A DNA stretch of 64,000 nt from Chytridium lagenaria. Its lineage: Eukaryota > Chytridiomycota > Chytridiomycetes > Chytridiales > Chytridiaceae. The notes under the pieces were generated by a model. That model saw only the letters and a list, made by a program, of their open reading frames with translations, made no database searches and was not told where the DNA came from. A program made the translations under genes and the position numbers. How positions within the stretch are numbered: position 1 is the stretch's first letter; every line of letters begins with the position of its first letter. Location of the stretch: positions 1 through 64,000 of the forward strand of contig JAHLKC010000044.1 of the NCBI GenBank assembly GCA_025449115.1, written 5' to 3'. Shown in pieces: positions 9,185-50,029 of this stretch.

Positions 9185-10947
9185 TTATCAACTAGAAATT
9201 AAGCAAAAACTTCAATAGATTTACGACACCCATAAAGACCTCGTTCTTAGGCCAGCTTTGCTCTGTGCTCTCCCTACCCTATTATTACATGCTGTGTTTG
9301 AGTATTCTGTGAGGCTTTCAAGTATCGGACATCGCCAAGGGGTGCTGGAACCCTAGGTCAAGGTAACTGAGTCTAAGTAAAGGTAAACCAGAGTTATTAC
9401 GCCTTTATGGCAAAACCCCATACAAGGACCTGCTCAGATAAACCACTTTATTATTACTTTCTTTCCAATGATCTGGGCTGTCTACTTGTCCTTGACAGGG
9501 CATGCGACCAGAGAGGAGCCGCAGACAGACAATGGAGGAAGTAGGAACGAGTTCAAAGGTCATACAGATGATTGTGAAGGTCCAGGATACTCCATGGAGT
9601 AGGATAGACTCCCTCCTTGTAGCCCTTTCTACTTAGGTAAGTGTGATCCCCGCCTAGGTTCTTTCTTCTCTTTGTTATTCGTTACTTCCCCTCCTTTTCT
9701 GGATAAAACCTCGCGAGAAACAGCAGAGCTGTACAGCGCAACAAATCCTTGCCTCAGCAAAAGACAAGCTGCAACCGCGATTCCAACTTATAGCACATAC
9801 AAGATGGATGGTGGTATGGCGCAGTGAACTCTCTCTCTACTATGGTCAAGGCTTGGATAGTAGAGGGCTAAGGGGAGAAATTCACAATGTGTTTGTGAAA
9901 GATAAATACCAGTCCCCTTTCAAATCAAATCACAATCCTATGGCACAAATCCCAATTGTCTGCGTCCAGTATATTCTAGGTGGCACTGACAGCGTCAACT
10001 GCGCAACCCCTCTTGTATTCCCTGTGGCATTGGCATTAGTGTTAAAATACTGGACGCCACCTCCAACTGGCTGGGGCAGAGATCACGTTACCACGGAAGA
10101 TCTTCTTCCAGCTTTATTGCATGAATCCACTTGTTCCACAAGCAGAAGGAGAACACTTCATACCAAAGAGAGAGTGGGGTATGTGTGGGGATGTTGTTAA
10201 TGCATATCATCAATATGCAATACATTGTTCCGCCTCAGAAACAACAACAACAGACAAAGACAAAAACAATCCAACTAGCCTGAAGCCCACACTAAAGACG
10301 TATCATTGTCCTCCTTACCAACGCGTTTTGACGATCAGAAACCAAAACATGGTAACTTACAGCGCAGATCACTGGAATCTCCCCAAGAAACGTCCGAATT
10401 GTTCCCGTCTCTGTCAGAACTCTTTCCCGGTTCTGTCAGAACTTCAGCCACCATCTCAATTACCATCAAAACATGGTTTATCCGGTTCACATTATAGAGG
10501 GTTCTCTCCAACGGCTGCCTGAGTAATGATATCTTTTTATAACAAAATGAGCTGTGACTCCCTCCTAATGCCAGTAAGTCAAAGATGAACAACATTTTTC
10601 CTTGCTTCACTTTGAACGGCTAGATCCCCTCCACCTTATGAACAGCGTTAAAGGCCCTGAGAAAGTTCTTCAATATCCAGCAGTGGTTCATGAGCGCTCC
10701 TGCGTTATCTTCCCCATTGTTTGTCTCCCGTGATTACTATATTCCTGAATATCAAATTTCAAGACTACTGGGTCATCAAGGTGATCAGGTACTATATATT
10801 ATAGACTACACATGCTAAGTAATGTGCTGGGGAGCAACAGCAGCATCCAGTATATTATTGGCAGCATTGAAGCTGCGTGACTCGCGGTTGCGCGAAGCAG
10901 TGGGAAAACATTGCGGATACCAGGTCATGGTATGCTACCCGAGGCAA
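9185..10947. other. Unassigned sequence
   Basis: Two overlapping open frames (9808-10200 and 10121-10522) show no motif that I recognise and have uneven composition. Nothing else here can be supported. Confidence 0.45.
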
Positions 10948-11538: not shown

Positions 11539-13327
11539 TTAAAGATCTTCAAAGTTTGCAGGGATAACAACGTCTTTTTCCAAGAATTCTCGATCAGCTT
11601 TGACGCGTGCACGAAGTTCAGCATCAAAGGGAAGCCAAGTATTGTAGATCGGTGAGTGATTGAGCCATTTGACGAGGGCTTGACGCTGACCTTTGAGTGT
11701 GCGAAGGGCAAGTAGTTTTTCGACGCGTCGTTCAGACTGTGGCAAGGAGGACAGAGGATGAGGGCCGTCGAAATCCCAGTAGTATGGTCGGAGCTTTTCT
11801 GGGTGGAAGACTGGGTGAACGCGCCATGATTCAGGGATGGCAAGGCGGTAGGAAGTTCCAAGTTTTTCTTCTATGACGTAGGGACCAGTGTATACAGGGC
11901 CGAGTTTGGCAGAAGGGCGTCCTTGGGCGTTTGGTGGTAAGACGTCTTTTGCTGAGAGGAGGACTAGATCACCGACTTTGAAGGGGTCTTCAAGGCGTTT
12001 CTTGTTGGCTGTAGTGGCTTGGCGATCTTGGGCTTGCTGGATGGCGAGTTTGGCGGTCTTGTACAAGGCTTGAAGGTCACGAATGCTCAGTTGATCTTGA
12101 ACATTGAGTGAAAGGTCCAGGAGTGAGGTAGGATTGCGACCAGTGTCCAGCATGAAAGGTGTGTAGCCTGTTGATGAGTTGACGGTGTCGTGGATGGCGT
12201 GCTCGACGATGTGAAGGTACTTGTCCCAGTCGTTTTGGTAGAAGTGAACGTATTCCCGAAGGGCGGCAATGATCCACTGATTCTTGTTCTCTGTCTGGCC
12301 GTCGGTCTGAGGGTGGTAGGATGAAGAGATGATTTGCTTGACGCGTAGAGACTTCATGAGGGCTTTCCAGAAGAAGCTGATAAAGCGTGAGTCGCGGTCG
12401 CTGATGATTGTCTTGGGAAGGCCGTGGTATCTCCAGATGATTTCTCAAAGATGTCGGCGATGTCTCCGGCGGTGGCGGTGTTGAGTGTTGGCTGAATGTG
12501 AACTCTTTTGTTTGCTGAATCCACAATGACCATGATGGTGTCAAAACCAGTGTTGAGCGTTGTCGGTAGGGGACCCATGAAATCCATTGAGATGGTTTCC
12601 CAGCGGTTCTCAGGGACTTGGTGAGGCTCGAGAAGACCGTATGGAAGGCGACGAGCAATCTTGTTGCGTTGACAAGAGTCACAGCGGCGTACATGCTTGG
12701 CGACGTCTTTGTGGATATTTGGCCAGTGGTAATGTCGAGTAAGTTTTTTCTGCTGTGCGTTCCCAGTTGCCGTGAATACTTGGTCCGTCGTCATGGGCGA
12801 GATTGAGGAGTCTTTGGCGAATGGCGGCAGGGACAAAGAGGCGGTACTGGTTGGCGGCTTTGTAGTACAGTAGTCCTCCACTGAGAAGGTAACGGTTGAT
12901 CTGAGTGCGACGTTCCTTGGGTACCGGCGGAGGATTGAAGTTTTCTTTTGGGGTGATGGTGTCGTCCAAGTACTGTTCAAGTTCCTTGAATTCGGGATCT
13001 TCTGGTAAGGCTTCTTTGATGGCGTCCAGGATGTCGTTGGTGATGGTGGTGATGGCGTTGAGGCTGATGTGAGGGTCTGTTGCTGCATCTTTGGAGTGAG
13101 GGCGTCGCGAAAGAGCGTCGGCGATAGTGTTCCAGTTGCCTGGAGTCCACTCAATGACGAAATCTTGGGCGAGGAGATCTGCGAGCCAGCGGTGGTGCAC
13201 AGGGCGGAGCTTGGGCTGGTCCAGGATGTACTGAAGAGACCTGTGGTCCGTGAAGACTTTGACTTGTCTGCCGATTAGGTAATGCCGATGCGTGCGGAAG
13301 GCTTCCACGAGGGCAAGGATTTCACCG
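11539..13327 (-). pseudogene. pol: Element A Pol, second part: RNase H end, integrase, chromodomain
   Basis: It begins inside RNase H at GEILALVEAFRTH, right after the point where element C entered. It continues through RNase H (FTDHRSLQYIL, IADALSRRP), the integrase zinc finger (HYHWPN, then CDSCQRNK), the integrase core (MSMDFMGPL; the middle acidic block is disrupted by frame changes; HPQTDGQTE) and a C-terminal chromodomain-like module (LKGQRQALVKWLNHSP, YNTWLPFDAELR). Frame changes fall near 12745 and 12440. Chromodomains steer integration to particular chromatin. The stop at 11539 lies about 100 bp from the LTR. Confidence 0.88.
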
Positions 13328-14374
13328 TGTGAGATTTTGCACCTCTTGGTGCATCTCACTAAGTTCACGTTACTTATGTAAAGTGAATACCTAGACGCGT
13401 TTACGCGTTTACCCCTCGTAAGTTCTCTTCTTTTCCCTTTTAGTGGTTTTCTACTTTTTCCCACGCGTTGTTTATAAGGGTTTTTGTCGAAGAGGGAAGG
13501 CACTCGTGCCTTGGTGCGTTTTGTTCTTGTTGTTTGTTATTTATTTTTGTCTCCAGTATAAAATGGAGACATTTTGTGTTTTGAATAAATTTGATAATTC
13601 TTTCCTCTTGATTTTGGCCCAGTTCCTAGCCTTTCTCCAGTTGGAGCCAACTCCCTGTCCTTGGGGTTGGCTCGGATTATCCCCATCTCTTATCATTGAC
13701 GATCTGCCCTAGCCTCTGTAGTGACCGCCGGACTGAGCCTCTCGCAGCCCCACTTACGGGTCGGAGACCCAGGACGCGACGCCTTGGGAGCCGGATCTAC
13801 CCCACTATTGCAGTCTGGGTCCCGGGAACGCCCTCCCCCTTGGTAAGTCAACTCCGAGCCCCGATTATCACGTCGCTGGCCACAGTGTGGGCGGGCCAGT
13901 CGTCACTCCCTTTCCCAACTCCCTATGATTCCGACTTTTGCTGAGGTAGCGAGGGCGAGAGGCCTCCCGTCGGATGAGGCTTAGTAGGATCGGTGCACAC
14001 GCCAACGGTGAAAAGGTCGCGTACGCAGGGCCGGACTATTGTGATCGTCACCGACGTCTCTCGCCTGGAGCGTCGTGGATGCAGGACATTAGGTAAGTGT
14101 TGTGATTGTTTATTGACGTTAGTCTATTCAAAATACAGGTTATTCCCCTCTTTATTACGATGGTGCGAAGGAAAAACGATACGCTCCGGTTGGTCCGTTC
14201 TAACTGCCGTCTGGTGCCAAGAGTACCTCTTGAGCCAGGTAGCGAGCAGAGGACTTCAATGAACACTGATTAAAGAATGTAAGTTAGTATTTGAACTCCT
14301 TAAGACCTCCCTCGGGTCTACTATCATTCGAAGATGGTAGGTGAACCCTTAGACAAGAGGGAGAGAAAGTCACA
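13328..14374 (+). repeat. 5' LTR of element C
   Basis: 1047 bp, with TGTGAG at the start and GTCACA at the end. It pairs with 27741-28795. A TATAAAA box lies at 13557-13563, followed by an AATAAA at about 13584. Confidence 0.93.
13557..13563 (+). promoter_or_regulatory. TATA box in the 5' LTR of element C
   Basis: TATAAAA in the context CCAGTATAAAATGGAG, repeated at the same place in the 3' LTR (27976-27982). Confidence 0.55.
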
Positions 14375-16938: not shown

Positions 16939-19435
16939 ATGCCTACAACCGTAGACGTTTTCTATGCCAGGATGATGATCCTCTTCTACGATGAAGAGGT
17001 TTACAAACCTTACTGGTTTCAGATAACTCGTGAAACTAATCCAGGTGGGATTTCCTTACGTCCTTACGTCCACCTCTCCATCTCAGTCGTTTCTTACGTC
17101 TATAATAACCACATCACCTGTTTTACGCAGAAGTATAGCCCTTCCGACTTCAACGTCGGTACCTCCTTCCTAGACGCACCGCCGCCGTTGCCTTCATGTC
17201 TCACCTTGAGTCCATCCCTGATGTACTTCTCACTGGCAATGATTTAATAAAGGCTTACTCACCCGACGGCGACTCTTTCTCTTTCCCTGAGCCACCGATC
17301 CCTACCTTTGAAGGCTCTTTCGTCTCCTTTGATAACGTACTGGACCCTACTCCTCAGTATGAATTAGTGGATGATGCATTCCAGTTGATCACCGACATGT
17401 TTCACCAACCTGAAACTCCGCAGATCCTAGAGCGAGAATCACCAATAGTCTCTGACGATCCCGATTCCTTATCCTCTTTGGCTCGTCCTAGAACACCCCC
17501 TTACGCCTCGCGCCACCCTACTCCTCTCCAAATCCCTCCTCGGGACGTTGACGAGCCATTGGTCGATCCTTTTGAGACGCAACCCCTGGAAGAAGTAAGC
17601 CGCGATGATGATGTTAGCGATAACGATGAAACCTCTAGCCTAACCAGTGAGTTTAATAACGATCTCTCTTTGGATTCTGCTCACCTTGTTTCGGATATGT
17701 CCTTGGACACCCCCGCCGCATCAACACCCCTAGCGAACCCAGCACCAATGACATCTTTGTTGATGCCGTTGACGACGGTGCCCCACGCTCCATCCCTGTA
17801 CCTCTTGCCGATGCTCCTATTTCTGATACTTCAACACCAATTTTTGTAGTTCAACTCACTCATCCCACCATGTCTGGACCTTACAATGCCGCATCTCCCG
17901 CCGGTTCCAACATCTCCATGTCGACTCCCAAGATCCTTGACGGCATGAATGCCAAGAGAGCTCAGGATCGCGTTTCAACCTTGCGCTTCCGAGGGAAAGA
18001 TGCCGATGAAGCCACAGACTTCCTGGACGAACTGGAGGATATACTGACCCAGCACGTCACTGATCCCCTCAAACCACATGAGCTCCGTCCCTTCGCTTCC
18101 ATGGACGCCGCCCTTAAATCAACTTGGAACCCTTCCACCATTCTGCAGGATAAGGCCGCCATCCTTCGACGACAGTCTCGCAACTGTACATGGAAAGAGT
18201 TTAGAGCTCTCATTCTCGGTCATTTCGCTTCAACTCACAGCGACAAAATCCTTCGCTCTCGCGTCCGTGCTTTTCAATGGGATCCTTCTGTCACCATCCC
18301 CAGTCAAGCTCTGCTGAGCTCGCCAACCTTAACGCCCGCGTTCCCCTCGCCTCTCGCATCACTGCGACGCCATAAAGGACCTCTTCATCACCGGCTGCAA
18401 GGACGACAGCTGGATTACGGCTGCCTACGCTGAACTTACAACAAACACAGCTGGGACCACGCCACCGTTACCGCCCTGGACATCGCCAATCATATGCATG
18501 CTCTCCACCCTCGCAACTCTGTCGCCTTTGGTTCCAATGGATCTTTGGCTGCCCTGGAAGCTCGACATGAAGCCCAGGAAACCATGCTCAAGGAGATTTC
18601 CCGCAGCCTCAAAAACCTTCAACGTCAAAACGGTACTGGAAAGCCTGCCCCTCGCACCAATCTCCTCTCCTTCTTGACCGAGGAACTTAAAATCGCCCCT
18701 CCCTCTGAAGGTATGAGTGAGTCATTAATGCATAATATGATCACTCTTACCGCCGACAGCGCTATCGCCGCTTCCCATGAGACTGGTGATGAACCCCCCT
18801 CTGAGGCCGACATTCTGAATTTTGCCGCTGAGATGGACAATATTCGACTTGGCCGTCAACCTGCTCCCTACAAACCAGGCTACCCTCGCCCTGGTGGACC
18901 TTCCCATACCTCGGCTATTCCCAAGCCTCCTTACCAGCCTCGTAGCCCTCCTCAATGGTGCCCTTTCCATCAGGAGAACCACTGGACTGCTTGTCCCTAC
19001 AACCAACTAACCACGGCGGATCTGGACGCGCTTCTCGATCGAAAAGGTGAGTCTTCTGCTCTTAACCTACGCGAATCCTTACCTGCTTTTCTTAGTCAAA
19101 CAAGCGACGACTCAGCTGTGATCCCGCCTCACTTGGTTTTTGCCATATCTCAACACTTTTTTCCTGACCAACAACATGTACCCTATTGTTTTGTTAGCAG
19201 TAAAAATAAAACCTTTCGTTATTCTGATGGCATACCTTCCATTCCACTTTCATCTTTATATGAAAATAGTGTCGATCCATCTATTGAACTTAATAAAACC
19301 GTCTTCATCCCTTCAAACGATGATGAATTAAATTCATTTCTTATCCACATGCACGCTTCTGGTAGCTCTGGCATTGTTTTGACGACACCAACGGCAAATC
19401 TCTTCTTGTACTCTATTGAAACAAACTTCATGTAA
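16939..19435 (+). pseudogene. gag: Element C Gag, long, with CHHC zinc motif
   Basis: It starts at ATG 16939 (MPTTVDVFYARMM) and ends with TAA at 19433-19435. Frame changes lie near 17190, 17750 and 18310-18490. An acidic, low-complexity N-terminal region (PLEEVSRDDDVSDNDETSS) leads to a capsid-like segment from about 17.9 kb (RFRGKDADEATDFLDELED). A coiled segment follows (LEARHEAQETMLKEISRSLK). The zinc motif at 18959-19000 is CPFHQENHWTAC, spaced CX2HX3HX3C. This order and spacing differ from the retroviral CX2CX4HX4C knuckle. At roughly 830 residues it is about twice a normal gypsy Gag. Confidence 0.7.
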
Positions 19436-22400
19436 ACAACCACTCATTGTTCGCATTCAATTCCCTTACGTTCATAAAATACAATCCGATCCCTCCACAT
19501 TCTGCACCGCGTGGTTTGTTTCTGCTCAAACTGAGGAGATTACATAACTGATGAAGACTTTTTACCTAGTCACGAATTACTTCCCGTCACCGTGAATACA
19601 AAATTCTACATAATACCGATGTCGTCCGATTTAAATCGACATCACGTATCTCCCTTCCTTAAATGCTTACCAGCACTTCAAATCGCCCACGCATTCTTCG
19701 AAAGAATGCTCCTCCCGTCGTACTCAATAAAACATTAACTGACGATGCCATATCATTGGCCTCTCTCGCCATTTCCCTACCTACCCACCCCATCTCCCTA
19801 ATGCGGAAAAGTCGCAACTGTTGCGACGTTATCTTCAAGAAACGGCCATGGTACGAAAATTCGAAAACGATATATTCGTACACGAGGTCTCTCAGGAAAC
19901 CGAGAGAAGTTTATCAAATTCTTCCTCTCGAAGAGAGGCTGGAACGAATACTCACGTCAGTAACGAGAGTGTCATCCCAGACGTTGCTAAAATATCCGAC
20001 GTGTCGCTTGTGGCTTTACCTTTGGAGACTGCTAAGGTTGAGACGAAAGAAATGGAATGCCAGACTGACTTCGATATTATTATATCGGACGTTCCCAAAC
20101 ACCTTATTGAAAAGGATGATGCATGCATTGCCCAGATTTGCTCTCGAATCCAAGGTGTCTACGTCGGTGATGTCTTGCTAGATACGGGATCCAATTGTAA
20201 CATCGTCACTAAACAGTTCCTTCGACGACTGGCTGAGGCTGGAAGAAGAGTCAAAATTATCCCTTTTCCCAAACCTCGCTACTCTCGAGGTATTGGAGGA
20301 AGACAACCCATCCTTGGGAGGTGTCTCCTAGATGTATCACCAGGTCTCGTGAGTCCGCGAATAAAGAAGCTTCAGGAATTTAATATTGTTGAACGCTGCC
20401 CACGTCCGATTATACTCGGCACCCCTGTTATCAACGCTTTTCATATGGATATTCTCGCAAGCCAGAATATGGTTCGGTTCTATTACAATAGACCTGGACT
20501 CCCCCATCTCGTGAAAATCCCCCTCCTTCACCAGCGAGTTATCAGGGCAGTTCCGACAGTGACTGGTCATCCGTCCTTTCCGAGCCTTACGTCAACTCTT
20601 GTCCAGTTCTTCACTACACCACCCCGCTTAAGCTGGTGTCCCGTGCTCATACCTATCTGAGTGCCTCTCCCTACGTACGTGTCATTGTTGCCAGGGATGT
20701 GGACCTGGACATGGACACCACTACTAAGGTCGAGTGTATTATTGATCGACTCCCCGATATACCTGATTCTACTTACACGGTACTTCCACGTACCGACTTA
20801 CCAGACCTTTTTCCCCAACGAACTATCTTCGACCATGCCGACTTATTCCCAGACGGTATGATTTCTAATCCCATCAAAAAGAAATGGAATAAGTCCAGGA
20901 AAACCAAGTATGAGGAGAATATGTCCGTCCACATGACTCCCTTCCCTTTGCTGGTAACTTACCTTGGCCCTTTCCCCACCAAACTAACGGCGGGAATGGA
21001 GATTGGTTACATGGTCGACGATCATCAACAAGACACTCGATTTGTTTTGCCTCTTAGCGACAAGATCATGGACGACGATGAATCCATGATCTCCTTACTC
21101 AGTGAGCTTATGGTCAATAATAAACTTAAATCTCTCAAAGACCTCCTCATACATTATTCAATTCTTGCTGAATCATGTGGAGACTTAGAAAGGAACGACC
21201 TTCGTCGTTACAGACGAACTAATAAAGGACATTCCACTCGAATTCCCAAACCTCCTATATCCTCAGCCCTCCGACGTCTTGACTCCTTAGCCAAGGAGCT
21301 TGATTTACCTGGTGACCCACTCCTCGACGATCATCACGACGATGAGGACATATCCTTAGTCGTCGATGATTCGTTACCTCAGCTTGACGCGTCTGAACTT
21401 GATTTGAACGAATCTGCTAAATTCTTGGAGCCGTCTAAGGCCGAAAAAGAGGCCCTTGCTCATCTCCAACCCAAAGATCCCACCAATGAGGATCGGATGG
21501 ACTACCTCAAGGAACAAACCCCTGCTTCTTTTAAAGAAATTTGGAATCGTTTCGATTTTGACCACCTGAAATCCTCTCCTGAACGCCTTAAGGCACTCCA
21601 AAGCTTCTTAGAAAAAGGACAGAACATGGACGTTTTTCGTGAATCTGTTCAAACAGGCACCAAATCTCCCGGTCAACACACCATCGAGCTTAAACCTTAT
21701 GCTCGTGCTCCAAACCTTGCTCCTTATCCTGTAGGATTGGAGCGTGCTAAAATTATTCGCGACCACATCGCTGAAATGCTTAAAACCAAGATTATTAGTG
21801 AGTCGCGATCCCCTTACGCCTCTCCTGTTTGTCTTGCAAAGAAAAAGGATAACTCTGTCCGATTCTGTACCGACTTCAGGAGATTAAATGAAGTCACAAT
21901 AAAAGATAAATATCCTCTTCCCCGCATCGACGAGACTTTTGACCGTCTTGCGGGTATGACTTTATTCACCTCGTTGGATCTTTTGTCCGGTTTCTGGCAA
22001 ATACCCGTTGCTCCGGAAGACCGACACAAAACTGCTTTCGTTACCCCCGATGGTCTTTATGAGTATTTGGTTATGCCTTTCGGCCTTACTAACAGTCCAC
22101 CTACTTTCCAACGTTGTATGGATATGGCTCTAGCTGGACTAAAATGGATAAATTGTATGGTCTACATTGACGATATAATCATCTTTTCAAAGGACGAGGA
22201 AACCCACTTCGCCAACTTACAGCTAGTATTCGACCGGCTACTGGAATATAATCTAAAACTAAAACCCAAAAAATGTCAGTTCCTTTTTGAAGTACTCCCA
22301 TTTTTAGGCCATGTTATTTCGAAAGATGGCATAAAAGCCGACCCAGAAAAACTCGGTAAGCTAGATAGCTGGCCTACTCCAAAATCCGTTCGCGACGTTC

Positions 22401-23466
22401 AACGTTTCCTAGGATTCACCAACTATTTTCGACGCTTTGTGCCTAACTTCACTGATGTCGCATATCCTCTATATAGTCTTCTCAAGAAGTCTTCTCCTTT
22501 TTCGTGGACGGATTCCTGTGAGTCGTCTTTTCAACACCTTTTGAAAACTTTGAAAGCAGAGGTCCTCCTCACTAATCCTCTTCCCGACGATAAGCTCGTT
22601 ATTTCTTGCGACGCTTCCAAAATTGGTATAGGCGCTGCTCTCTTTATCGATCGTGACGGCATTTATCACCCCGTTGCTTTTGCCTCTCGAACTCTGAATG
22701 ACGCAGAACAAAACTACTCCAACACCGATCGCGAAGGCCTCGCCGTCGCGTGGAGTGCTAGTCTTTTTGAACCCTACACTTGGGGAAAATCCTACAAAAT
22801 TGAAACAGACCATTCTGCACTCGTCCCCTTTTTTCCAAGGGTGATCTCAAAGGCAGATTTGCCCGCTGGATGTATGCCCTGCAGGAGCATAACATTGAGC
22901 TTGTCCACACTCCAGGAAAGAGCCACGAAGTTGCCGACGCTCTCTCCCGTGCCTTTAAGCCAACTGAAACCTTCACTGATGGTTCTGATGTTGTCACAAT
23001 CTGTTCTGATTCTTCACGAGTCTTTATTGGCGCCAATTCTAAGTACCAAAATAAAAAGTTGAAGCAAAAGCACTCTGATCGCTCTAAGCGCTATGACGAA
23101 GTCTTTTCCACACATGATGTTTTAATGCGTTTCAATGCGGAAACAGCTGCTTCGTTAATAAACAGCTCCACTAACTACCTGTTCTCACAACACCTGTTGC
23201 CCCAACGAGTCCGGCACGTTTGGGTACTTCAAACCAACCCAACCGCGCTCACCTACGTTTTAGCCATTGATGCCGTTTGCCTTCCTGGTGAACTTAATGA
23301 TTCCTCACCTACCAGTCAGGATTTCAATGACGGTACCTCTCAATATAAGTATGCTTACCCAATTCGGGCTAAGTATGAAATCAAAAAGCCTCTATCTGCA
23401 GATACGATCTCTTCTTTCAACGTGACACCCAGAACTCCTGGCATCACTTACCTACAAGTGTATTAA
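19436..23466 (+). pseudogene. pol: Element C protease, reverse transcriptase, RNase H
   Basis: Protease: DVLLDTGSNCNIV at about 20.18 kb with a flap-like IILGTPVINAFHMDI near 20.42 kb. RT and RNase H lie in the long frame 20636-23062: SPYASPVCLAKKKDNSVRF, then SLDLLSGFWQIPV, MPFGLTNSPPTFQ and the catalytic YIDDIIIF. RNase H has VISCDASKIGIGAALF, YSNTDREGLAVAWS and, after a single-base frame change near 22830, VADALSRAF. The frame then continues to a stop at 23464-23466 through about 160 residues of unknown sequence. Protease and RT are in different frames (change near 20600). The RT places the element in Ty3/gypsy. Confidence 0.9.
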
Positions 23467-23559
23467 ATAAATACCTCTTACAAAAATGATGTTAATCAGT
23501 ACCCACCCTCCCTCCCATACTCTTTTGACACCCCCCCGGATCTTGACGATATAAGTCTT

Positions 23560-24126
23560 GTGAATGGGATCATCGACGCCTCTAACTTAGAAATCGATCC
23601 TCCCCCTCAAAAGATTGAAGACACTCCATCCGACATCTTTGTCAGAATGAGCGCTCCACGCGTCCAGGATCTCCTTTCAGGACGACGCGAGCATGAGTAC
23701 CTCCCACTGAAACTTGACGGCCTCACCTCTCTTTGGATATGCCAATGGGAAGAGACTTTCCCTAATGACAAGGGTCGCCGACCAAAACCACCGCCAGGGT
23801 GCGTAAGCCACGTTGCCGTTGTTGGCGACGCAATTCCCCCAACTAGTCCAGACTTTCCGAAGCCTGTGATTTACGGTTTGGGAGGGGATCTTGAAACTTA
23901 TTATGCCTACCGCATACTCCAGGTTTTCGAAATCCCTGATATTCTTATGGAACGGAAATTAAATAAAGATGAGCCTCCTTCTCTGCGTGAGCTCTATGAT
24001 GTTCATACCACGCGAGGAAACCCCACCGTTCCTTTGCGGATGGTGATTGACTATAACTTGCTAAAGCTTAAAAAGGTTTATCCCCTCCCTGCTAAAGTGT
24101 CCCCTTTTGAGGACTTCACCCTTAAA
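23560..24126 (+). other. Unknown coding segment joining RNase H to the exonuclease III domain
   Basis: An open frame of about 190 residues beginning MNGIIDASNLEIDPPPQ runs without interruption into the exonuclease III-like domain. It contains HVAVVGDAIPPTSPDFPKPV and YAYRILQVFEIPDILMERKL. No domain is recognised. Being in frame with the nuclease, it may be its N-terminal extension. Confidence 0.45.
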
Positions 24127-24935
24127 ATGGTCACCTGGAACGTCAACAGTTTAAACGCTCTATGCAAGAAATTATACCAGCGTAAACCTGAAACAGAGGA
24201 CCTTAACCGGGCCGAATTCTTTGCGAGATACCTCGAGAAAATGGGTTACTCTATTGTTTGCCTTCAGGAGACCAAATTAGGCGAAGGAGCCAAAAAGTTA
24301 TGGCAACAACTACAGCACCTCACCAACTGGAATATCCACGCGGATGAAAAACATGATGGATCTAATGGTGTCATCACTATGGTTCGAAAGGAAGTCCCTG
24401 TGATTTCGGTTCACCTCGGGACCTCTCCTTGATCCACTAACGACGACTTTGTTGAGGAAGGTCGTTGCCTCACCATTTGTTTACCAGGTTTGAATATCGT
24501 CAATGTTACTGCCCTAATGGCACTCGGCATGAACACCGTCATCATTACAAGATGCGCTTTTTAAACAGGCTTTATGCCCTCGTAAAAGACTTACGTAAAA
24601 TAATAAAACTATATTACTTGGTGATTTCAATATCTCTCATACCTCACAAGACACCCGATACCTGCGCGTTGCTCGGGCTACTCAGGGTTCAGAGACGACG
24701 AACGAGCATTGTTTGATAGTTTCCTCCGTCTAGGTTTCCTTGACGGCTACCGCACTTGCCACCCAAATTCCCCCGGCTACACCTGGCACGACCCCCAGTC
24801 TTTCTACCAGGCTGTATGGCGAGTCGACTACGCTCTTGTCGACTATAGATTCCATGTTCTTGGAAAGTAAACCATTATTTTGCAGCAGGTCTTACTGACC
24901 ACAGTGCTGTGGAACTTGAGCTTAAAAACGACTTT
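24127..24935 (+). pseudogene. Exonuclease III / AP endonuclease-type domain within element C
   Basis: The family hallmarks occur in order: VTWNVNSLNAL (metal-site Asn), VCLQETKLGEGAKKL (metal-ligand Glu), YCPNGTRHEHRHHYKM (catalytic Tyr region), LLGDFNISHTSQD (Asp and Asn), HPNSPGYTWHDP, WRVDYALVDY and LTDHSAVELEL (terminal Asp-His pair). Frame changes lie near 24435, 24500, 24610, 24690 and 24870, but every motif is present. ExoIII/APE enzymes cut DNA at abasic sites and remove 3' blocks. LINEs use a relative to nick target DNA, but an LTR element between RNase H and integrase is not where I know it from. The YKM/PNG style is closer to the bacterial ExoIII class than to LINE endonucleases. 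Confidence 0.85.
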
Positions 24936-25277: not shown

Positions 25278-27110
25278 ATGAAGCGATCGCCAGTGCGCCC
25301 TTGCTCTTGCGTCCCTCGCGGACTGAGAGAAGTTGCGTTTGACCAAGTACATAATGATATGATGACCGGGGCTCACCTCGGCTCCCAAAAACTCCTGTCC
25401 ACTACCCTTGAACGATACTGGTGGCCTACTATTCATCGTGATCTTGTCGCCTACGTACAAGGTTGCTCCACTTGCCAGAAATGTAAGGATTCCCTTAAGA
25501 AAGTCGGCGCTATTAAGCCGGTCCCCTTTGGTAACCCAGCCTTGGGAACGCGTAGCCATTGATATCGTTGTCCTCTTAAGGAAAGCAAACATGGTAATAA
25601 ATACATTGTTGTCATCACGGATTACTTTACCCGATGGGCTGACGCTTTCAGTGTTCCTGATATTACCTCGGATACTGTTGCTCGTACTATCGTCGAGCAG
25701 TGCTTTTGTCGATTTGGCATTCCCTTGGTCCTTCACTCTGATCAAGGCCAGCCTTTCGTCAGTGAATTGTTAAAGAAGGTGAGCATCGTCCTCGGCCTCC
25801 GTCAATCCTTCTCGTCGCCTTACTGGCCTCAAGCCAACGGCCTTGTCGAGCGCACCAACAAAACCCTCTGTCAGATGATAAGGGCTTACGTCAATCAGGA
25901 TAGTCATGATGATGGGATGAGATTCTACCATACGTTCTTTTCGCCTATCGCACCACAGTGCATCCCACTACCCGCAAAACCCCGTTCCTCCTGATGTTTG
26001 GTCGAGACCCCTTGACTCCTGCTGACCTCAGGTTCGGCATTTCCTCTGACGATGTTTTTGCTGAGACTTACCCTGATCCCGTACTTGGGCGGGTCAGTTA
26101 CCAAAATCCTATGACGACGTCCACGTCGCCTTGGCGGGACGGCACTTCACACCCCTCTCGTGATCCTGATTTCCCCAGGATTGCTGTTATGACCTCTGTG
26201 GCTCGACACGTCGTGGTTCGAGGCTTTCGAAGACTGTTCACGGTCTTAAAACCGCCGCTGATAGGGACGACTACCTATTAGCTGGTGACTTTCTTATCAA
26301 ACATTGTCTGGATATATTCTACGTCCTCCACACAACCCCACTAAACAGGAGACATCCCAAGTTTCTTCTGGCGCACCCTCGGTGATAATAACCGCGTGCC
26401 AATGTATGCAATAACCTCTAAAGTTGTCCTCTCTGCCGAGCACGGTGGAGCCCACACCTTCGTCACAATTTTCCACAAGGCATCATCACCTCTGACTCCC
26501 GTTCCTCCCTTACGGTGGGCCCTCAGATGAATCTGCTATACCACAACCAGACCCTCGTCTCTCCCACTTCCCCGTGTGATCTTAACCGTGATCAAATACT
26601 TGATCCCAACGTCCCTTCAATCTATTTATTGTCTCCTCCCAATCAAGGAGTCGTGAGGAGCCCCGCGTCACCACCTGTGGTTCCAATCGCCCCTGGAAAA
26701 ACTGAAGGCAACAAAAACGCCTCTTGATACGGTCGCGTAAAGTGTTGAACTCTTCCATGACTTTTGTATGCAGGATGATCCGCCTAGTTATCGCGACTAT
26801 GTCAATCAGCTCACTTCCAGGCTTGCTCTTGCCAAGAGTATATACTCCTTCGAGAGTCTATGAAGCGGCGCGAAAGTGCCTCTGAGAAAACAAATAAGTC
26901 TCGGCATCGTTTCGAAATTGGTGACCTTGTTTGGTTATCCGTACCTCTACGCACTGAAGCGGCAACCAAAGATAAAGAATCTACCGATAAAGAAGTTTCA
27001 ATTTCGGTGGGCTGGTCCCATGCGTGTTATTGGTCATTCCCCAGATAACTTAGGTTCAACCTCGTCGAGACCCTGCCTGATGAAGGCTTCTGGCTAGAAC
27101 CGCTAACTCT
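25278..27110 (+). pseudogene. Element C integrase
   Basis: The zinc-binding module is HNDMMTGAHLGSQKL, then CSTCQKCKD (His pair and Cys pair). The catalytic core follows in shifting frames: WERVAIDIV (first Asp), VLHSDQGQPFVSE (second Asp) and ANGLVERTNKTL (Glu), so the D,D,E triad is complete. TTRKTPFLLMFGRDPL follows the core. From 26.1 to 26.85 kb coding is poor. It resumes at RHRFEIGDLVWLSVP, the SH3-like region that precedes gypsy chromodomains. Frame changes are seen near 25560, 25720 and 25960. Confidence 0.85.
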
Positions 27111-27740: not shown

Positions 27741-28795
27741 TGTGAGATTTTGCACTTCTTGGTGCATCTCACTAAGTTCACGTTACTTATGTAAAGTGAA
27801 TACTTAGACGCGTTTACGCGTTTACCCCTCGTAAGTCCTCTTCTTTTCCCTTTTAGTGGTTTTCTACTTTTTCCCACGCGTTGTTTATAAGGGTTTTTGT
27901 CGAAGAGGGAAGGCACTCGTGCCTTGGTTGTGTTTTGTTCTTGTTTGTTTGTTATTTATTTTGGTTTGTCTCCAGTATAAAATGGAGACATTTTGTGTTT
28001 TGAATAAATTTGATAATTCTTTCCTCTTGATTTTGGCCCAGTTCCTAGCCTTTCTCCAGTTGGAGCCAACTCCCTGTCCTTGGGGTTGGCTCGGATTATC
28101 CCCATCTCTTATCATTGACGATCTGCCCTAGCCTCTGTAGTGACCGCCGGACTGAGCCTCTCGCAGCCCCACTTACGGGTCGGAGACCCGAGGACGCGAC
28201 GCCTTGGGAGCCGGATCTACCCCACTATTGCAGTCTGGGTCCCGGGAACCCCTCCCCTTGGTAAGTCAACTCCCGAGCCCCGATTATCACGTCGCTGGCC
28301 ACAGTGTGGGCGGGCCAGTCGTCACTCCCTTTCCCAACTCCCTATGATTCCGACTTTTGCTGAGGTAGCGAGGGCGAGACGGCCTCCCGTCGGATGAGGC
28401 TTAGTAGGATCGGTGCACACGCCAACGGTGAAAAGGTCGCGTACGCAGGGCCGGACTATTGTGATCGTCACCGACGTCTCTCGCCTGGAGCGTCGTGGAT
28501 GCAGGACATTAGGTAAGTGTTGTGATTGTTTATTGACGTTAGTCTATTCAAAATACAGGTTATTCCCCTCTTTATTACGATGGTGCGAAGGAAAAACGAT
28601 ACGCTCCGGTTGGTCCGTTCTAACTGCCGTCTGGTGCCAAGAGTACCTCTTGAGCCAGGTAGCGAGCAGAGGACTTCAATGAACACTGATTAAAGAATGT
28701 AAGTTAGTATTTGAACTCCTTAAGACCTCCCTCGGGTCTACTATCATTCGAAGATGGTAGGTGAACCCTTAGACGAGAGGGAGAGAAAAGTCACA
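27741..28795 (+). repeat. 3' LTR of element C
   Basis: 1055 bp, pairs with 13328-14374. It is followed by the ACCG duplication at 28796-28799 and then by the continuation of element A Pol. No strong purine tract precedes it (AAAAATAGGCCAA). Confidence 0.93.
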
Positions 28796-28799
28796 ACCG

Positions 28800-32432: not shown

Positions 32433-32772
32433 CATTTCACATGACAAGCCGCCTTTTTTTTTTTTTTTTTTTTTGTTTATAGTTATTTATTGGAGCAAAC
32501 CCAAAATACAAAAGTCTCTCGACCCCCGCATTCTAAGAAAAACCAAGAAAATAACAAGCCTACGTGTCCCGTTCTGGGCTCAGGCACAATGACAGACCGA
32601 AGGTAAGAAGCATAAGAAAAGAGTGAGCGTGGTCCAAGGGGTAAGGGGGAGAGGTGAGGGAATCTAGGAAACCGTCCAGGGGTCTTTACGAAATCATGAT
32701 ATAGTTGAGACCCGGGGTATAGGTAATGTTTGTAGGGTACAGCATATAACAGAGGACCTTCAGGCCTGACAA

Positions 32773-32844
32773 GCCGCCTTAGCTCACCTGGGAGAGCGTA
32801 GCACTGAAGATGCTAAGGTACTCGGTTCGATCCGAGAGGCGGCA
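32773..32844 (+). tRNA. tRNA-Phe (GAA), arm 1, one-base deletion in T-loop
   Basis: Acceptor stem GCCGCCT/AGGCGGC, anticodon loop CTGAAGA. The T-loop has six bases (TTCGAT) where the arm 2 copy has the normal seven. T-run follows. No intron. Confidence 0.85.
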
Positions 32845-32853
32845 TTTTCGCCT

Positions 32854-32928
32854 GCTTCTGTGGCGCAACTGGTTAGCGCGTGACGCTGTTAACGTCAAGG
32901 TTTCGTGGTTCGAGTCCACGCAGGAGCG
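32854..32928 (+). tRNA. tRNA-Asn (GTT), arm 1, one extra base
   Basis: Acceptor GCTTCTG/CAGGAGC, anticodon loop CTGTTAA. It has an extra T before the T-stem compared with arm 2 (75 versus 74 nt). Confidence 0.88.
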
Positions 32929-32953
32929 TAGGGAAGAAATGTCCCACCTATTT

Positions 32954-33028
32954 GGTCGCGTGGTGTAGTCGGTTATCACATCTGTCTAACCACACAGAAG
33001 GTCTCCAGTTCGATCCTGGACGCAACCA
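32954..33028 (+). tRNA. tRNA-Val (AAC), arm 1, eight-base anticodon loop
   Basis: Anticodon stem TCTGT/ACAGA encloses CTAACCAC, one C more than the normal loop CTAACAC in arm 2. The acceptor stem has a C-A mismatch at pair 4-69 in both arms. Confidence 0.82.
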
Positions 33029-33046
33029 TTTTGACAAATCAACGTA

Positions 33047-33120
33047 GCTCCGCTAGCTCAGTTGGTTAGAGCGTGGTGCTAATAACGCCAAGGTCACAGG
33101 TTCGATCCCTGTGCGGAGCA
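33047..33120 (+). tRNA. tRNA-Ile (AAT), arm 1
   Basis: Acceptor GCTCCGC/GCGGAGC, anticodon loop CTAATAA, followed by TTTTT. Identical in length to the arm 2 copy. Confidence 0.93.
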
Positions 33121-33132
33121 TTTTTCACTTAG

Positions 33133-33205
33133 GCCCGGCTAGCTCAATCGGTAGAGCGTCAGACTCTTAATCTGAAGGTTGTGGGTTCGACCCCCACGTT
33201 GGGCG
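33133..33205 (+). tRNA. tRNA-Lys (CTT), arm 1
   Basis: Acceptor GCCCGGC/GTTGGGC with two G-U pairs, anticodon loop CTCTTAA, T-loop TTCGACC. Same length as arm 2. Confidence 0.93.
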
Positions 33206-33234
33206 TGACAAACAACAGTGTTGTCTCTAGTGCA

Positions 33235-33306
33235 GCCGCTCTAGTATAGTGGTTATTACTTCTCGTTGTGGCCGAGAGAACCCTGGTTCGATTCCAGGGG
33301 GCGGCA
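33235..33306 (+). tRNA. tRNA-His (GTG), arm 1
   Basis: Acceptor GCCGCTC/GGGCGGC, anticodon loop TTGTGGC, followed by a T-run terminator. No intron. Confidence 0.92.
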
Positions 33307-34060: not shown

Positions 34061-35839
34061 GAAATCTCTCCATGTCCCAGATGCAAATGGAAGAGTCACC
34101 TGTCCAGGACTCCTACCATGATGTGGATATACGGCAAGATACTTCCATATAGATCAGCTATGGAAACAGATGATGAAGAAACTGATTGCACAATCACTTT
34201 TGATCCAGTCACGTTAATCATACAATCATGCAGTAAATACCAGCCATCACCTTAACCAAGTTTAAACGTCTGCAACTCAGGACCTTCCTACAATCCGTTA
34301 TTACTCGTTAGATGGAAGAATCAGGACGGGAGGTATTGATCTGGCAGTGGTCTGGTCTTTGTTAGGAAAAAGGTAGCCATCAACTGCACCAAGAAGGCGA
34401 ACATATATCAAAAGATGGCGGATGGGCCATAGCTGCAGGAATAGATCATCCCTCCAGAGTGCTTAGTAGACTGGTCTCCTGTCACTTTTTCCCTTTGCAC
34501 CATTTAGCTTGCATGTTTAGCAATAAAAGCACTGTGATCTTCTCTTGACCCATCCCTCCCTACCTAGCTTTGACTAGGGGGTAGGCGAGAAGAGTAAAGG
34601 AGTTGCTCCAGCAGAGCAAGTTCACAGAGCACCTAGGGACAGGATGTACTCCTGAATCTAAGTGATGTTAATGTTGTTTGGCAATGGTGTGGGTGAGTGA
34701 TTGCGAGCTTCTGCGTATTTGAGGGAGAAGGGAACAGATTTAGTATCTTCATTATCAACTTACCTTGCTTATAAACCAATATCAGCACCAGATTGTCTCC
34801 TGGCAATTGGGCATAGCTATAAGTCTCCATGCCACCCTACTATGGATGGCACCTTTTGGAACATGGGCTCTCGTTTGCCTCTCAGAGCTTTGAACAGGGT
34901 AACCTCACTCATTGCCTGCCATCAGCGCCTGCTCATCAGGTCGATGAGCGCCAGATGTGGAATGCAGCTGACCAAGCCTCAACTAAAGGACACTGTGAAT
35001 GAGGAGGGATTCCATCACAGCCTTCCGTCTCAAACGCCCAGATTGCAGCTTCACCAGGCTGTAAGGGGGCAGAGGGGTGACTGTCATCCAACTAAGAGTG
35101 AAGGGGAGATCACGTCACGAGGCCACGCACGTGGGGATATAGGATAGACAATCAACTCAATATCAACTACTGGATTCAACAGGTCAAATTAGATCAAGAG
35201 ATTTTGCATATTGAAGTAATACATAAAATACAAATGAAAAATAGACACAACATATGCACACACACATAAACCGCACATATGCGTGCCACCTCCTTCAATA
35301 TAAACCCTATAAACGTGGGGAAAAAGTGCATATACAAAACCCAAAGGAAAAGGAAGGGAGGATTCAATATGACGCGTAAATGTTCATGGATGCGGAATAT
35401 GCGGAACTCAACAGACTTAGACAAAATGTCCTTATGAGCTATAGGCCATGTGAGTATTGTAATTTTTCACATTCTCCCTATTTTAAGAACAGGCTTACAT
35501 AAGAAAAGACGAACTTAGTTGTCAGAAGTATAAGAACCATCTGTGAATATATCAGAGCTTGCATTATTGGCAAGTCTATAAGGCTAGGTATTGGCAAAGT
35601 TTAAGTAATTGTTACCACCTAACATCTCTATGGCTAGTGGTATTTAGGAATATTGTGTGCACTTCTTTTATTTGCAGAAGGCCTGGGGTTGTTTGGGGCT
35701 TTGTGTGGCGGCTCTTGATCAAGTAGGTCAAGTGCCAGCAATGAGATCACGCTACATAATCATTGTGGTGAGTATCTCTGTGCTCTAAAATCAATTCAAC
35801 CATCTCATGGTCCGTCAGTGGCGCCACAAAATGGTGTTA
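34061..35839. other. Unassigned sequence, mostly inside arm 1
   Basis: About 1.8 kb, largely shared with 41840-43200 in inverse orientation. Short frames only. The innermost 260 bp (35190-35450) are AT-rich with CACACACA runs. Nothing identifiable. Confidence 0.5.
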
Positions 35840-36204
35840 ACATTCTATTTGCAAGGAATTTGTTTATCTACAAAGGTGTAGTTGATTCACCAAACAGCTT
35901 TATAGAATTCGGTTGGATCATGCAAGTATATTTGGGCGTATGCAGATTGCTATGACGAATCTATTCTTGAAACCTAAGTTAATGAATGAGCTAAGCCAGT
36001 AGCGTTCATCATTGATGGTTCTCAAACATCAATTGCTTTATGAGCAATGTTGAAATCTCCTACAACAATTGTATATGATTGAGCCTTGAGACACTTTACA
36101 AAAGTGTGTAGGCGTTCAAGGAACTTCATTTTATAATCCTGTCTGTGATCATGCCTTGTGCCATTTGGCGCATAGGCTTCCAAATTGAAAGTCTTGACCA
36201 TCAA
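35840..36204 (-). pseudogene. Second exonuclease III-type domain fragment
   Basis: The minus-strand frame gives AYAPNGTRHDHRQDYKMKFL, then TIVVGDFNIAHKAIDV, NDERYWLSSFINLGF and HDPTEFYKAVW. Each block aligns with the domain in element C (YCPNGTRHEHRHHYKM, LLGDFNISHTSQD, HDPQSFYQAVW). The N-terminal Asn and Glu motifs are not found upstream and the C-terminal Asp-His is not found downstream. This is a decayed piece of a related gene or element. No integrase or RT of element C type sits beside it. Confidence 0.75.
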
Positions 36205-43961: not shown

Positions 43962-44033
43962 TGCCGCCCCCTGGAATCGAACCAGGGTTCTCTCGGCCAC
44001 AACGAGAAGTAATAACCACTATACTAGAGCGGC
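43962..44033 (-). tRNA. tRNA-His (GTG), arm 2
   Basis: Mirror copy of 33235-33306, 72 nt, anticodon loop TTGTGGC. Confidence 0.92.
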
Positions 44034-44062
44034 TGCACTAGAGACAACACTGTTGTTTGTCA

Positions 44063-44135
44063 CGCCCAACGTGGGGGTCGAACCCACAACCTTCAGATTA
44101 AGAGTCTGACGCTCTACCGATTGAGCTAGCCGGGC
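44063..44135 (-). tRNA. tRNA-Lys (CTT), arm 2
   Basis: Mirror copy of 33133-33205, 73 nt, anticodon loop CTCTTAA. Confidence 0.93.
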
Positions 44136-44148
44136 CTAAGTGAAAAAA

Positions 44149-44222
44149 TGCTCCGCACAGGGATCGAACCTGTGACCTTGGCGTTATTAGCACCACGCTC
44201 TAACCAACTGAGCTAGCGGAGC
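44149..44222 (-). tRNA. tRNA-Ile (AAT), arm 2
   Basis: Mirror copy of 33047-33120, 74 nt, anticodon loop CTAATAA. Confidence 0.93.
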
Positions 44223-44240
44223 TACGTTGATTTGTCAAAA

Positions 44241-44314
44241 TGGTTGCGTCCAGGATCGAACTGGAGACCTTCTGTGTGTTAGACAGATGTGATAACCGAC
44301 TACACCACGCGACC
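44241..44314 (-). tRNA. tRNA-Val (AAC), arm 2
   Basis: 74 nt with the normal seven-base loop CTAACAC. The acceptor stem GGTCGCG/CGCAACC has the same C-A mismatch as arm 1. Confidence 0.9.
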
Positions 44315-44339
44315 AAATAGGTGGGACATTTCTTCCCTA

Positions 44340-44413
44340 CGCTCCTGCGTGGACTCGAACCACGAACCTTGACGTTAACAGCGTCACGCGCTAACCAGTT
44401 GCGCCACAGAAGC
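44340..44413 (-). tRNA. tRNA-Asn (GTT), arm 2
   Basis: 74 nt, anticodon loop CTGTTAA, without the extra T of arm 1. Confidence 0.92.
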
Positions 44414-44422
44414 AGGCGAAAA

Positions 44423-44495
44423 TGCCGCCTCTCGGGATCGAACCGAGTACCTTAGCATCTTCAGTGCTACGCTCTCCCAGGTGAGCTAAGGCGGC
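44423..44495 (-). tRNA. tRNA-Phe (GAA), arm 2
   Basis: 73 nt, anticodon loop CTGAAGA, normal T-loop TTCGATC. It lies seven bases from the left edge of element B. Confidence 0.92.
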
Positions 44496-44502
44496 TTGTC
44501 AG

Positions 44503-44968
44503 TGTGACGGAACGAGCCTAGCTAGGGCGAAGGTTCGTCAAAGGGGAAATATTGAAGGAATATTTGAAAGGAGAGATGAGAGTTTTGAAGGGTTTTTATT
44601 TAAGAAGAAGAAGCTGTTCAAAGTAGAAATGTTGATGAAGAAGTAGATGTTGAAGAAGTCAAAGAGAGAAGCTAGCCTTTTATAGGCGAAAACACGAAAA
44701 ATAGAGTTGAAAGTTAAAGAAAGTTTAAGAAGCTTTTAGAACAAATAAAGAAGAATTTCGAAGAAAAGAAACATTTAGAATGAAAAGGAAAGTTCGAGTT
44801 TTAGCTAAGAATGGTAGAGAAAATAAAAGAACTTCGAATAAAGTTGGCAAAGTTGGGGCTAAGCGCGGCAACTTGCGGAAAAAATAAACGAAGTGGAAAA
44901 ATACAATAAGGAAGGTAATACAAGAAACATTGAAGTAATACAAGAGATATTAGGGAAATTCCGTCACA
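44503..44968 (-). repeat. 3' LTR of element B
   Basis: 466 bp, TGTGACGG to GTCACA. Followed on the internal side by the purine tract (CCCCCCTA on the plus strand). Confidence 0.94.
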
Positions 44969-45074
44969 CCCCCCTACAAGAGCCTAAGCGAAGTGAAGGC
45001 GATGATGCAAGGAATTTCAAAAGAAGAAGGAAAGAGAAGTTAAAGAAATACATGTAAAAGAAGAAATAAAAGTG

Positions 45075-48000: not shown

Positions 48001-48970
48001 TGTTCTTGATGTTGTCAGGAAGCGAAGCCAGAATTCTTGCGTCTTTCTCGTTGGCGTCAGCGGTGGTCTTCAAAACCGGAGCGTGCGCAGGGACATGAGT
48101 GGGGACTTGATGGCCAGAGGAAGCTGAATTGCAGGAAGGTGCTGAGTTGCTTGAGGCTAAGCTGTCCGAGAGGATGTCCTTGAGGTGGATGAGTCCAAGT
48201 CTGATGTTGGGGAACCTTGCGAGGCGCTTGAATGTCTTTGCCGAAATGTGTTCCACAGTGACGGGAATCTGTTCTCTACAGATCCAGCGGTTGTTGCCGA
48301 AGGTGACTGTGTTGGTGGTCCAGTCTATCCTTGGGTTGACCCGTGTCAACCAATCCTTGCCGAGGATGACGTCGTACACGATTGGTGCAGAGATGAATTC
48401 TTGCTTGGTGACGTAGAGGTCAATGTTGAGTTCCAGGTCGCGAAAGAGGCGTCCTTTGACTGCTCTTGGTGTTGAAGCGGCGAGCTTGATGTCGAAAACT
48501 TCTTGGTTGGATGGTTTGCTGATGGCGAAGGCGAGAGAGTCCTTGACAAAGGAGTGAGTGGCTCCTCCATCTATGAGAACTTTGGCGTGCCGTCCGTTGA
48601 TGGTGCCTTGAATGACGAGAAGGTCACTCTTGGCGTCTTGTTTCTCGACGTGGTAGATCTTGAGGATGCGATCGACGTCTTGATGAGGCCTTTGAGGTTT
48701 GGATGTGGATGGAACCGTCTTGACAGAAGCCTCCACGGAACTCTTGTCAAGTGTAGCGCGCTCGACCTCGGGAGGTGGTGAAGACTCTCCCGAGGGAGCG
48801 CGCAACGCCGTGTCTTGATCAGGTTTGAGAGGCAGATTGCCTCTTACTGTTGCCGACCGTCGGTGCTGTCGTTTCCGAGACTTGCGTGTTGTTGACCTTG
48901 ACTTGTTTCCGACGGATTCCTGGGGCGTTGCATTGCTCATAGCGATGTTCGTGAGAGCGGCAGTAGGTAC
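45075..48970 (-). CDS. pol: Element B Pol polyprotein (one frame break near 46080)
   Basis: Protease LIDGGATHSFV (about 48.57 kb). RT with SKLDLASGYHQIRI, MPFGLANAPATFQ and YMDDILIFS (about 47.4 kb). RNase H with LYTDWSESAVGSYVAQ, GEILALVEAFRTH and TIADALSRRP. Integrase zinc finger HYHWPN...CDSCQRNK. Core with MSMDFMGP, IISDRDSRFIS and HPQTDGQTENKN (D,D,E complete). Chromodomain-like C-terminus ALVKWLNHSPIYNTWLPF. One missing base near 46080 splits the frame inside the integrase. Stop at 45075. Apart from that single break, the protein looks functional. In an error-free read this copy may be active. Confidence 0.9.
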
Positions 48971-49888: not shown

Positions 49889-50029
49889 TGTGAAGGAGAA
49901 GGGAGAAGTGAAGAGAGTGAAGGAGGGAGAGAGAGCTCAAGATTGAGTGAGGGAGCGAGAGAGGGCTCGAAATGGAGTGAGGGAGCGAGAGAGGGCTCGA
50001 GAGAGTGAGGAATTTTGAAGTGCTACAAA

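Follow-up and report, generated by a model that had tools for sequence, protein, structure and literature searches.

We found that Ty3/gypsy retrotransposons of the chytrid Chytridium lagenaria encode a nuclease domain of the ExoIII/AP-endonuclease type between RNase H and integrase, and we have hardly any doubt that this domain genuinely belongs to the elements' polyprotein and is maintained by selection. What emerges is a kind of gypsy element in which a new accessory enzyme occupies a conserved position, a combination absent from the descriptions that we searched. Our preferred reading, to which we assign a probability of about 50%, is that the domain is a functional part of the polyprotein that would be packaged with reverse transcriptase (RT) and integrase and would work on the element's cDNA.

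An ExoIII domain inside a nested Ty3/gypsy element

The window, by which we mean the whole analysed stretch of 64,000 nucleotides, contains a Ty3/gypsy element of 15,468 bp with long terminal repeats (LTRs) of ~1.05 kb; all features of this element lie on the forward strand. The 5′ LTR (13328..14374) has TGTG...CACA ends and is 98.4% identical to the 3′ LTR (27741..28795), with 5 mismatches and 9 indels between the two. The repeats are flanked by a target-site duplication, ACCG, at 13324..13327 and 28796-28799, which was derived from the comparison of the filled site with an empty one. The empty target is present within the same window at 46845-46875 (ACCG at 46859-46862), in an uninterrupted copy (44503-50487) of the other gypsy element that received the insertion, and no ExoIII match was found in this host element. 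The LTR ends, the ACCG flanks and the empty site thus set the length of the element and its nested position, and bear out the earlier note, which had described a 15.5-kb element with matched LTRs and a target duplication. Both TG...CA ends and a short (4 bp) duplication are therefore present in this single insertion.

Inside the element, gag-like open frames (17139..19432, named from position alone, with no Pfam match over cut-off) are followed by the aspartic protease motif LLDTGS (20175..20192, with a Pfam score below cut-off), and then by RT (PF00078, 21839..22315, E 2.3e-36) and RNase H (PF17919/PF17917, 22505..22834, E 1.8e-25) in one frame. Downstream lie two related orphan domains, X1 (23095..23463) and X2 (23620..24126), which stand in tandem ahead of the ExoIII/AP-endonuclease-type domain (EEP fold, 24127..24935). 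The zinc-binding part and core of integrase follow (25305..25913; 66% identical to the integrase of a relative with an open frame of 2573 aa), and behind them lies a chromodomain (PF00385, 27336..27479) that is over cut-off in the window copy (26.0 versus 25.1 bits) and below it in the 2573-aa frame (20.7 bits). The order is thus that of gypsy elements, RT, RNase H and integrase, with the ExoIII domain intercalated between the last two, and the domain matches confirm the location that had been read from the letters alone.

The nuclease domain of the window copy, whose ExoIII-type sequence occupies 24130-24917, was identified by its motifs and by Pfam and NCBIfam profiles, and it is split across three reading frames. 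All seven ExoIII motifs that had been reported occur in order from 24136 to 24917: WNVNSL (24136), LQETKL (24262), YTWHDP (24778) and WRVDYALVD (24817) in frame 0, PNGTRH (24513) and TDHSAVEL (24894) in frame 2, and GDFNIS (24620) in frame 1. The first open piece (23467-24429) exceeds the Pfam cut-off for PF03372, the profile proposed for checking it (E 7.8e-6, 26.2 bits, cut-off 24.5). TIGR00633 matches the window copy in two pieces (24121-24507, 45.7 bits; 24667-24861, 30.5 bits), each of them individually below the whole-protein cut-off of 99. The assembly probably contains indel errors, and since indels outnumber substitutions between its recent repeats, the breaks in the window copy may partly be sequencing error. 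The arms of an inverted repeat in the window differ by 35 gaps and 13 mismatches, and one tRNA of a duplicated pair has, as read, a four-base anticodon.

Further features of the window were recorded beside the element. A cluster of six tRNAs (Phe-Asn-Val-Ile-Lys-His) occurs twice, in inverted orientation, inside the long inverted repeat (32766-33306 and 43962-50487). In one arm, the gypsy element at 44503-50487, which shows no ExoIII match, ends up 7 bases upstream of tRNA-Phe, whereas the other arm lacks it; this placement resembles Ty3 targeting of tRNA genes, and a 5-base overlap at 32766-32770 looks like the target duplication of that element. A second ExoIII-bearing element is present as a decayed remnant at 35800-36200 on the reverse strand (TIGR00633 match at 36007-36198). 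By eye, the sequence after the 5′ LTR of the 15,468-bp element fits the 3′ ends of none of the six window tRNAs; self-priming was considered as well and found unsupported beyond a match of 10 bases, against 6-9 bases in 20 control pieces.

Spread of the domain through the genome

When the 42-Mb genome (356 contigs) was searched with the first open piece, 102 matches were obtained, the piece itself included, with identities from 99% down to 24%. These many matches, together with relatives in long open frames, rule out that the window holds a single odd copy. The arrangement that we looked for elsewhere, RT-RNase H-ExoIII-integrase, was found intact in the 2573-aa frame, which contains RT, RNase H, X1, X2, ExoIII, the zinc and core domains of integrase and the weak chromodomain. 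ExoIII is also joined to integrase in single frames of 1604, 1145, 717 and 613 aa, and RT-RNase H is joined to ExoIII in a frame of 1308 aa.

A genome search with TIGR00633 returned 117 matches, which were merged to 77 loci by joining same-strand matches within 1.5 kb. An integrase match lies no more than 3.5 kb downstream in at least 48 of the 77, a lower bound, as 85 of 156 integrase rows were used and other low-identity integrases and short fragments were left out; the neighbour count otherwise took all 117 TIGR00633, 111 RT and 27 PF14529 rows. With the rows used, RT upstream and integrase downstream occur together in 28 of the 77 loci, and neither occurs in 22. Viewed from RT, 29 of the 35 merged RT loci of at least 50% identity have the domain within 4 kb downstream. 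The six that lack it within this distance are C109 (domain ~6 kb farther), C115:4243 (an X fragment only), C155:72751 (an RT fragment), C273, C296 (where a match at 9747-10223 spans X2 and the start of the domain) and C346 (contig edge). Among them no clean copy without the domain was found, with C273 and C115:4243 being unreadable.

Identity of the nuclease

The element proteins were assigned to the ExoIII family at its broad level. TIGR00633 scored 131-160 bits in all six element proteins tested, against a cut-off of 99.05. In the same six, the narrower ExoIII models were not reached: TIGR00195 scored 108-149 bits (cut-off 182.55), NF008733 scored 41-67 bits (cut-off 280), and no protein attained the cut-off of NF010489. 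PF14529, the profile of LINE endonucleases, stayed at 18.3-21.3 bits in the five element proteins where it was listed, below its cut-off of 27.4. None of the 27 PF14529 loci of the genome, which were taken by profile alone and not by LINE RTs, overlaps any of the 77 ExoIII loci; because some bacterial ExoIII proteins match PF14529 too, it serves here as a LINE-enriched and not a LINE-only yardstick. The element domain also sits C-terminal to the gypsy RT-RNase H in the 2573-aa frame, unlike the placement in LINEs. Its closest PDB sequences are exodeoxyribonucleases (8igi, 5cfe) and APE1-type enzymes, and none of the 54 PDB sequence matches is a LINE endonuclease by name. Neither a placement within LINE endonucleases nor LINE flanks were found, and the trees described below contained no LINE endonuclease. 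The proposal that the domain is of the ExoIII type and not of the LINE type is supported.

Fifteen element domains were aligned with an APE1-like protein (P0130), and residues are named by their roles in APE1. The catalytic Glu is kept in all 14 domains that cover it, and Tyr, Asp-x-Asn, Asp and Asp-His are kept in 15 of 15, as is the Arg of the P-N-x-x-R motif. The first Asn is kept in 11 of the 12 domains covering it, the exception being N to D in P0124. Relative to P0130, the loop preceding W-R-x-D lacks 1 to 5 residues in every one of the 15 domains, and 3 residues in 11 of them; judged from the alignment, this shortening could change or abolish recognition of AP sites.

Selection and descent

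Purifying selection on the domain was estimated from pairwise dN/dS, an estimate that depends on few pairs because dS is saturated in most. The best pair (C324 versus C234; 251 codons, dS 0.85) gave 0.04, and other pairs gave 0.05 (C120 versus C234), 0.10 (C155 versus C76), 0.14 (C155 versus C57) and 0.01 (C76 versus C57), while one near-identical pair with very few changes gave 0.25. For RT-RNase H and for integrase, dN/dS was no lower than in the best pair of the domain, at 0.04 (C50-C95) and 0.10 (C76-C155), respectively. Two further values, 0.02 and 0.12, come with a nearly saturated dS. The domain evolves faster than its neighbours, with an identity of 46% (C198 versus C76) compared with 68% for the integrase of the same pair and 77% for RT (C198 versus the related C16).

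In a tree of 85 ExoIII-family domains, 14 of the 15 element domains form one clade with support of 100/100. Sequences were eligible for this tree if they spanned >72% of the domain model, as 184 of the 223 matches did; every sixth sequence of P0005-P0122 was retained, and P0001 was removed as a double. A reduced tree leaves out L045, the domain of a second gypsy lineage, together with seven proteins on long branches and three element rows that are nearly identical to others; in it, all 11 element domains again fall into one clade. The comparison with APE1-, APE2-type and bacterial-like proteins that the earlier note had called for yields a separate clade for the elements, set off by a long stem and placed outside both the bacterial-like and the APE1 sequences. 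Branches are long in the RT tree, where a single clade of ExoIII-bearing RTs has a p of 0.097; in the few rows that it shares with the domain tree, no strongly supported conflict was seen. The domain has been inherited together with the element, and the likeliest reading of these trees is a single old capture with vertical transmission thereafter within the clade of this first lineage.

A 323-aa frame on contig C6 was considered as the APE1 gene of the host and rejected, with an integrase match following ~340 bases on. This locus (G000 C6:511739-513446, reverse strand) consists of the 323-aa ExoIII frame and then an integrase that shares 55% identity with its first-lineage counterpart, and the frame probably belongs to a further lineage of ExoIII elements.

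Relatives in other organisms and the orphan tandem

Relatives with the same arrangement were recovered from other sources. When the domain region of the 2573-aa protein was used as query, the one protein of comparable length was P0002 (3585 aa, from a metagenome source), which contains RT, RNase H, ExoIII and integrase. A search with an alignment of ExoIII and integrase returned 59 proteins among 8000 scored candidates. In four of the 59 the domain is linked to other parts of the element: P0123 (RNase H-ExoIII-integrase), P0124 (ExoIII-integrase), P0125 from Phlyctochytrium bullatum (ExoIII and the integrase zinc domain) and P0126 (RT-RNase H-ExoIII). In a search with the domain only, two partial proteins of Dinochytrium kinnereticum, with 57-66% identity in the best local match to the element domain, rank above bacterial-like ExoIII proteins; both this species and P. 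bullatum belong to the Chytridiales. No relative turned up in viral contigs, where the ExoIII-integrase alignment produced 36 pattern matches. The earlier note had proposed that the window element captured an ExoIII gene. The capture stands, and on these sequence comparisons it appears as an event not of this element, being ancestral to an element clade that occurs in several chytrid or chytrid-like sources.

Profile comparison shows X1 and X2 to be related (hhalign probability 95, E 3e-8), and stretches akin to them occur upstream of the nuclease in the first-lineage elements of the genome. Neither X1 nor X2 has a Pfam match at E 10, and X2 has none among PDB sequences at E 10. An ASCH/PUA-type identity, which their appearance had suggested, was backed by none of these searches, and X1 and X2 are therefore left without a family name. 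In P0002, P0123 and P0126 the step from RNase H to ExoIII takes ~60-130 residues and, by eye, contains no X, so X likely arose after the nuclease or disappeared from some lineages; in P0125, a single stretch can be aligned with X.

A second gypsy lineage with the nuclease at the same junction

On contig C11, RNase H, ExoIII and the integrase zinc domain occur in one 653-aa frame (L045) preceded by an RT frame. The RTs of the two lineages share just 31% identity. No integrase core was detected at C11, where the frame after L045 gave no Pfam match. RT directly precedes the domain in six loci of the second lineage (C11, C115, C137, C63, C94 and C95); the C137 domain is identical to that of L045 and the others share 59-81% identity with it, and integrase matches of 25-26% identity lie downstream on C115, C94 and C63. 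These six loci and a degraded piece on C56 make up the 7 of 40 merged RT loci below 50% identity that have the domain downstream. The catalytic residues are retained in this lineage too.

The L045 domain falls outside the first clade. A single clade of all 15 element domains is not rejected (p 0.375), nor is a grouping of L045 with three APE2-type proteins (p 0.282), and the second lineage's nuclease, at the same junction, is perhaps a separate capture. A further reading, which we regard as unlikely, has distant gypsy lineages of these fungi acquire ExoIII in at least two separate captures at one junction; in both lineages the nuclease would have become an obligatory partner of integrase, producing or mending the 3′ ends to be joined, and integration would require two nucleases.

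Partial ExoIII matches (51 bits, model positions 100-176) were also observed at G000 C80:177830, C114:119506, C291:6019 and C319:5632. Each of the four copies precedes a weak gypsy-type RT match (29-30% identity) by ~2.9 kb instead of following it, an arrangement at odds with the order RT-ExoIII-integrase.

Proposed role of the domain and alternatives

Cellular ExoIII and APE1 open abasic sites, strip 3′ blocking groups and degrade 3′ ends. As a part of Pol, a magnesium-dependent ExoIII/AP-endonuclease in this chromodomain-bearing clade would be released and packaged beside RT and integrase in the virus-like particle. There it could open abasic sites in the element cDNA and clean or trim damaged or overhanging cDNA 3′ ends. 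Mended 3′ ends would then allow extension by RT, and integrase would receive proper 3′-OH ends. We hold this repair of cDNA to be the specific task with somewhat less than even confidence, and give lower odds to the alternatives in which the domain nicks target DNA, removes RNA or acts without catalysis.

One alternative is that the domain removes RNA while reverse transcription proceeds, as an additional nuclease of the RNase H kind that attacks the primer or RNA-DNA hybrids. E. coli ExoIII possesses RNase H activity, the domain is located behind RNase H, and, by eye, none of the six tRNA 3′ ends fits the primer-binding site of the window element; however, the elements retain an RNase H domain of their own, and we think this role improbable. 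The next in order, and a little more doubtful, is nicking of the target DNA in the manner of LINE endonucleases, by which the domain would help or redirect integration. It gains from the shared superfamily of the two enzyme types and from the position of the domain next to integrase in the polyprotein. The elements, however, retain the zinc and core domains of integrase, and the one insertion for which an empty site was compared shows intact LTR ends and a target duplication of 4 bp, of the kind that integrase produces. The TIGR00633 scores of the domain, which exceed the cut-off, and the separateness of the PF14529 loci also speak against a LINE-like task.

A domain that is inactive and serves merely as a binder of nucleic acid or as a spacer would account for its faster change relative to RT and integrase, but the retention of catalytic residues in the tested domains, those of the distant second lineage included, makes this very unlikely. 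That a single element received a piece of a LINE or a gene of the host as a secondary insertion, a reading which the broken window copy taken alone would permit, can be dismissed, as the same junction is filled in open frames at many loci and in other sources, and no LINE flank or scar was seen in the loci read.

Comparison with known systems

To our knowledge, LTR retrotransposons and retroviruses depend on the host for mending abasic sites and damaged 3′ ends, except that some bring a dUTPase. A clade with its own ExoIII/AP endonuclease in pol would let cDNA damage be tested as a limit on retrotransposition, and it would make testable whether the junction between RNase H and integrase is a site at which repair enzymes are picked up. 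Among the open-access papers listed, a scope outside of which Repbase and most subscription journals fall, none describes by its title or the start of its abstract an ExoIII or AP endonuclease in an LTR retrotransposon, in agreement with the statement of the earlier note that it knew of no gypsy family with such a layout.

With the cellular ExoIII/ExoA/APE1 family (TIGR00633, PF03372), the element domains share the catalytic motifs and a TIGR00633 score over cut-off. They differ from it by their place in a retrotransposon polyprotein, by their own clade on a long stem, by the shortened loop before W-R-x-D and by their shortfall on the narrower ExoIII models. The APE-type endonucleases of LINEs (PF14529) belong to the same superfamily as ExoIII and also adjoin an RT; they are N-terminal to it and serve target-primed reverse transcription, and in this genome they have separate loci and a separate profile.

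RT and ExoIII are likewise joined in one protein in bacterial-type, maturase-like RTs (P0136, P0141, P0142, P0146, P0148 and P0153). These carry RVT_N, RT and GIIM domains, with no integrase listed, and their ExoIII domains cluster with bacterial-like enzymes. In the two sequences that were read, P0136 and P0142, ExoIII is N-terminal. P0142 represents 200 member sequences, and no relative was found in the species genomes scanned with it.

The dUTPase fold differs from that of ExoIII. As a DNA-quality enzyme inside pol, the element ExoIII nevertheless resembles the dUTPases of retroviruses and LTR elements; dUTPase prevents the incorporation of uracil, and an AP endonuclease would come into play at a later step of that repair pathway. 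dUTPases are reported to occur in some retroviruses, in some of them between RT and integrase, and in LTR elements of basidiomycetes and rotifers (PMC5408684). The extras of LTR elements named in the literature also include chromodomains, DEDDy or DnaQ-like exonucleases, helicases and env genes (PMC6431247, PMC5408684, PMC3248453, PMC6338049). A likeness exists with Juno and Vesta, LTR elements of bdelloid rotifers, which like the chytrid elements represent a lineage that acquired a nuclease, and whose DEDDy exonuclease showed no significant departure from neutrality according to the authors of the study (PMC5408684). In Juno and Vesta the enzyme is of the DEDDy (RNase D-like) type and encoded by a separate ORF3, whereas in the chytrid elements it is of the ExoIII type, lies within pol and is strongly conserved.
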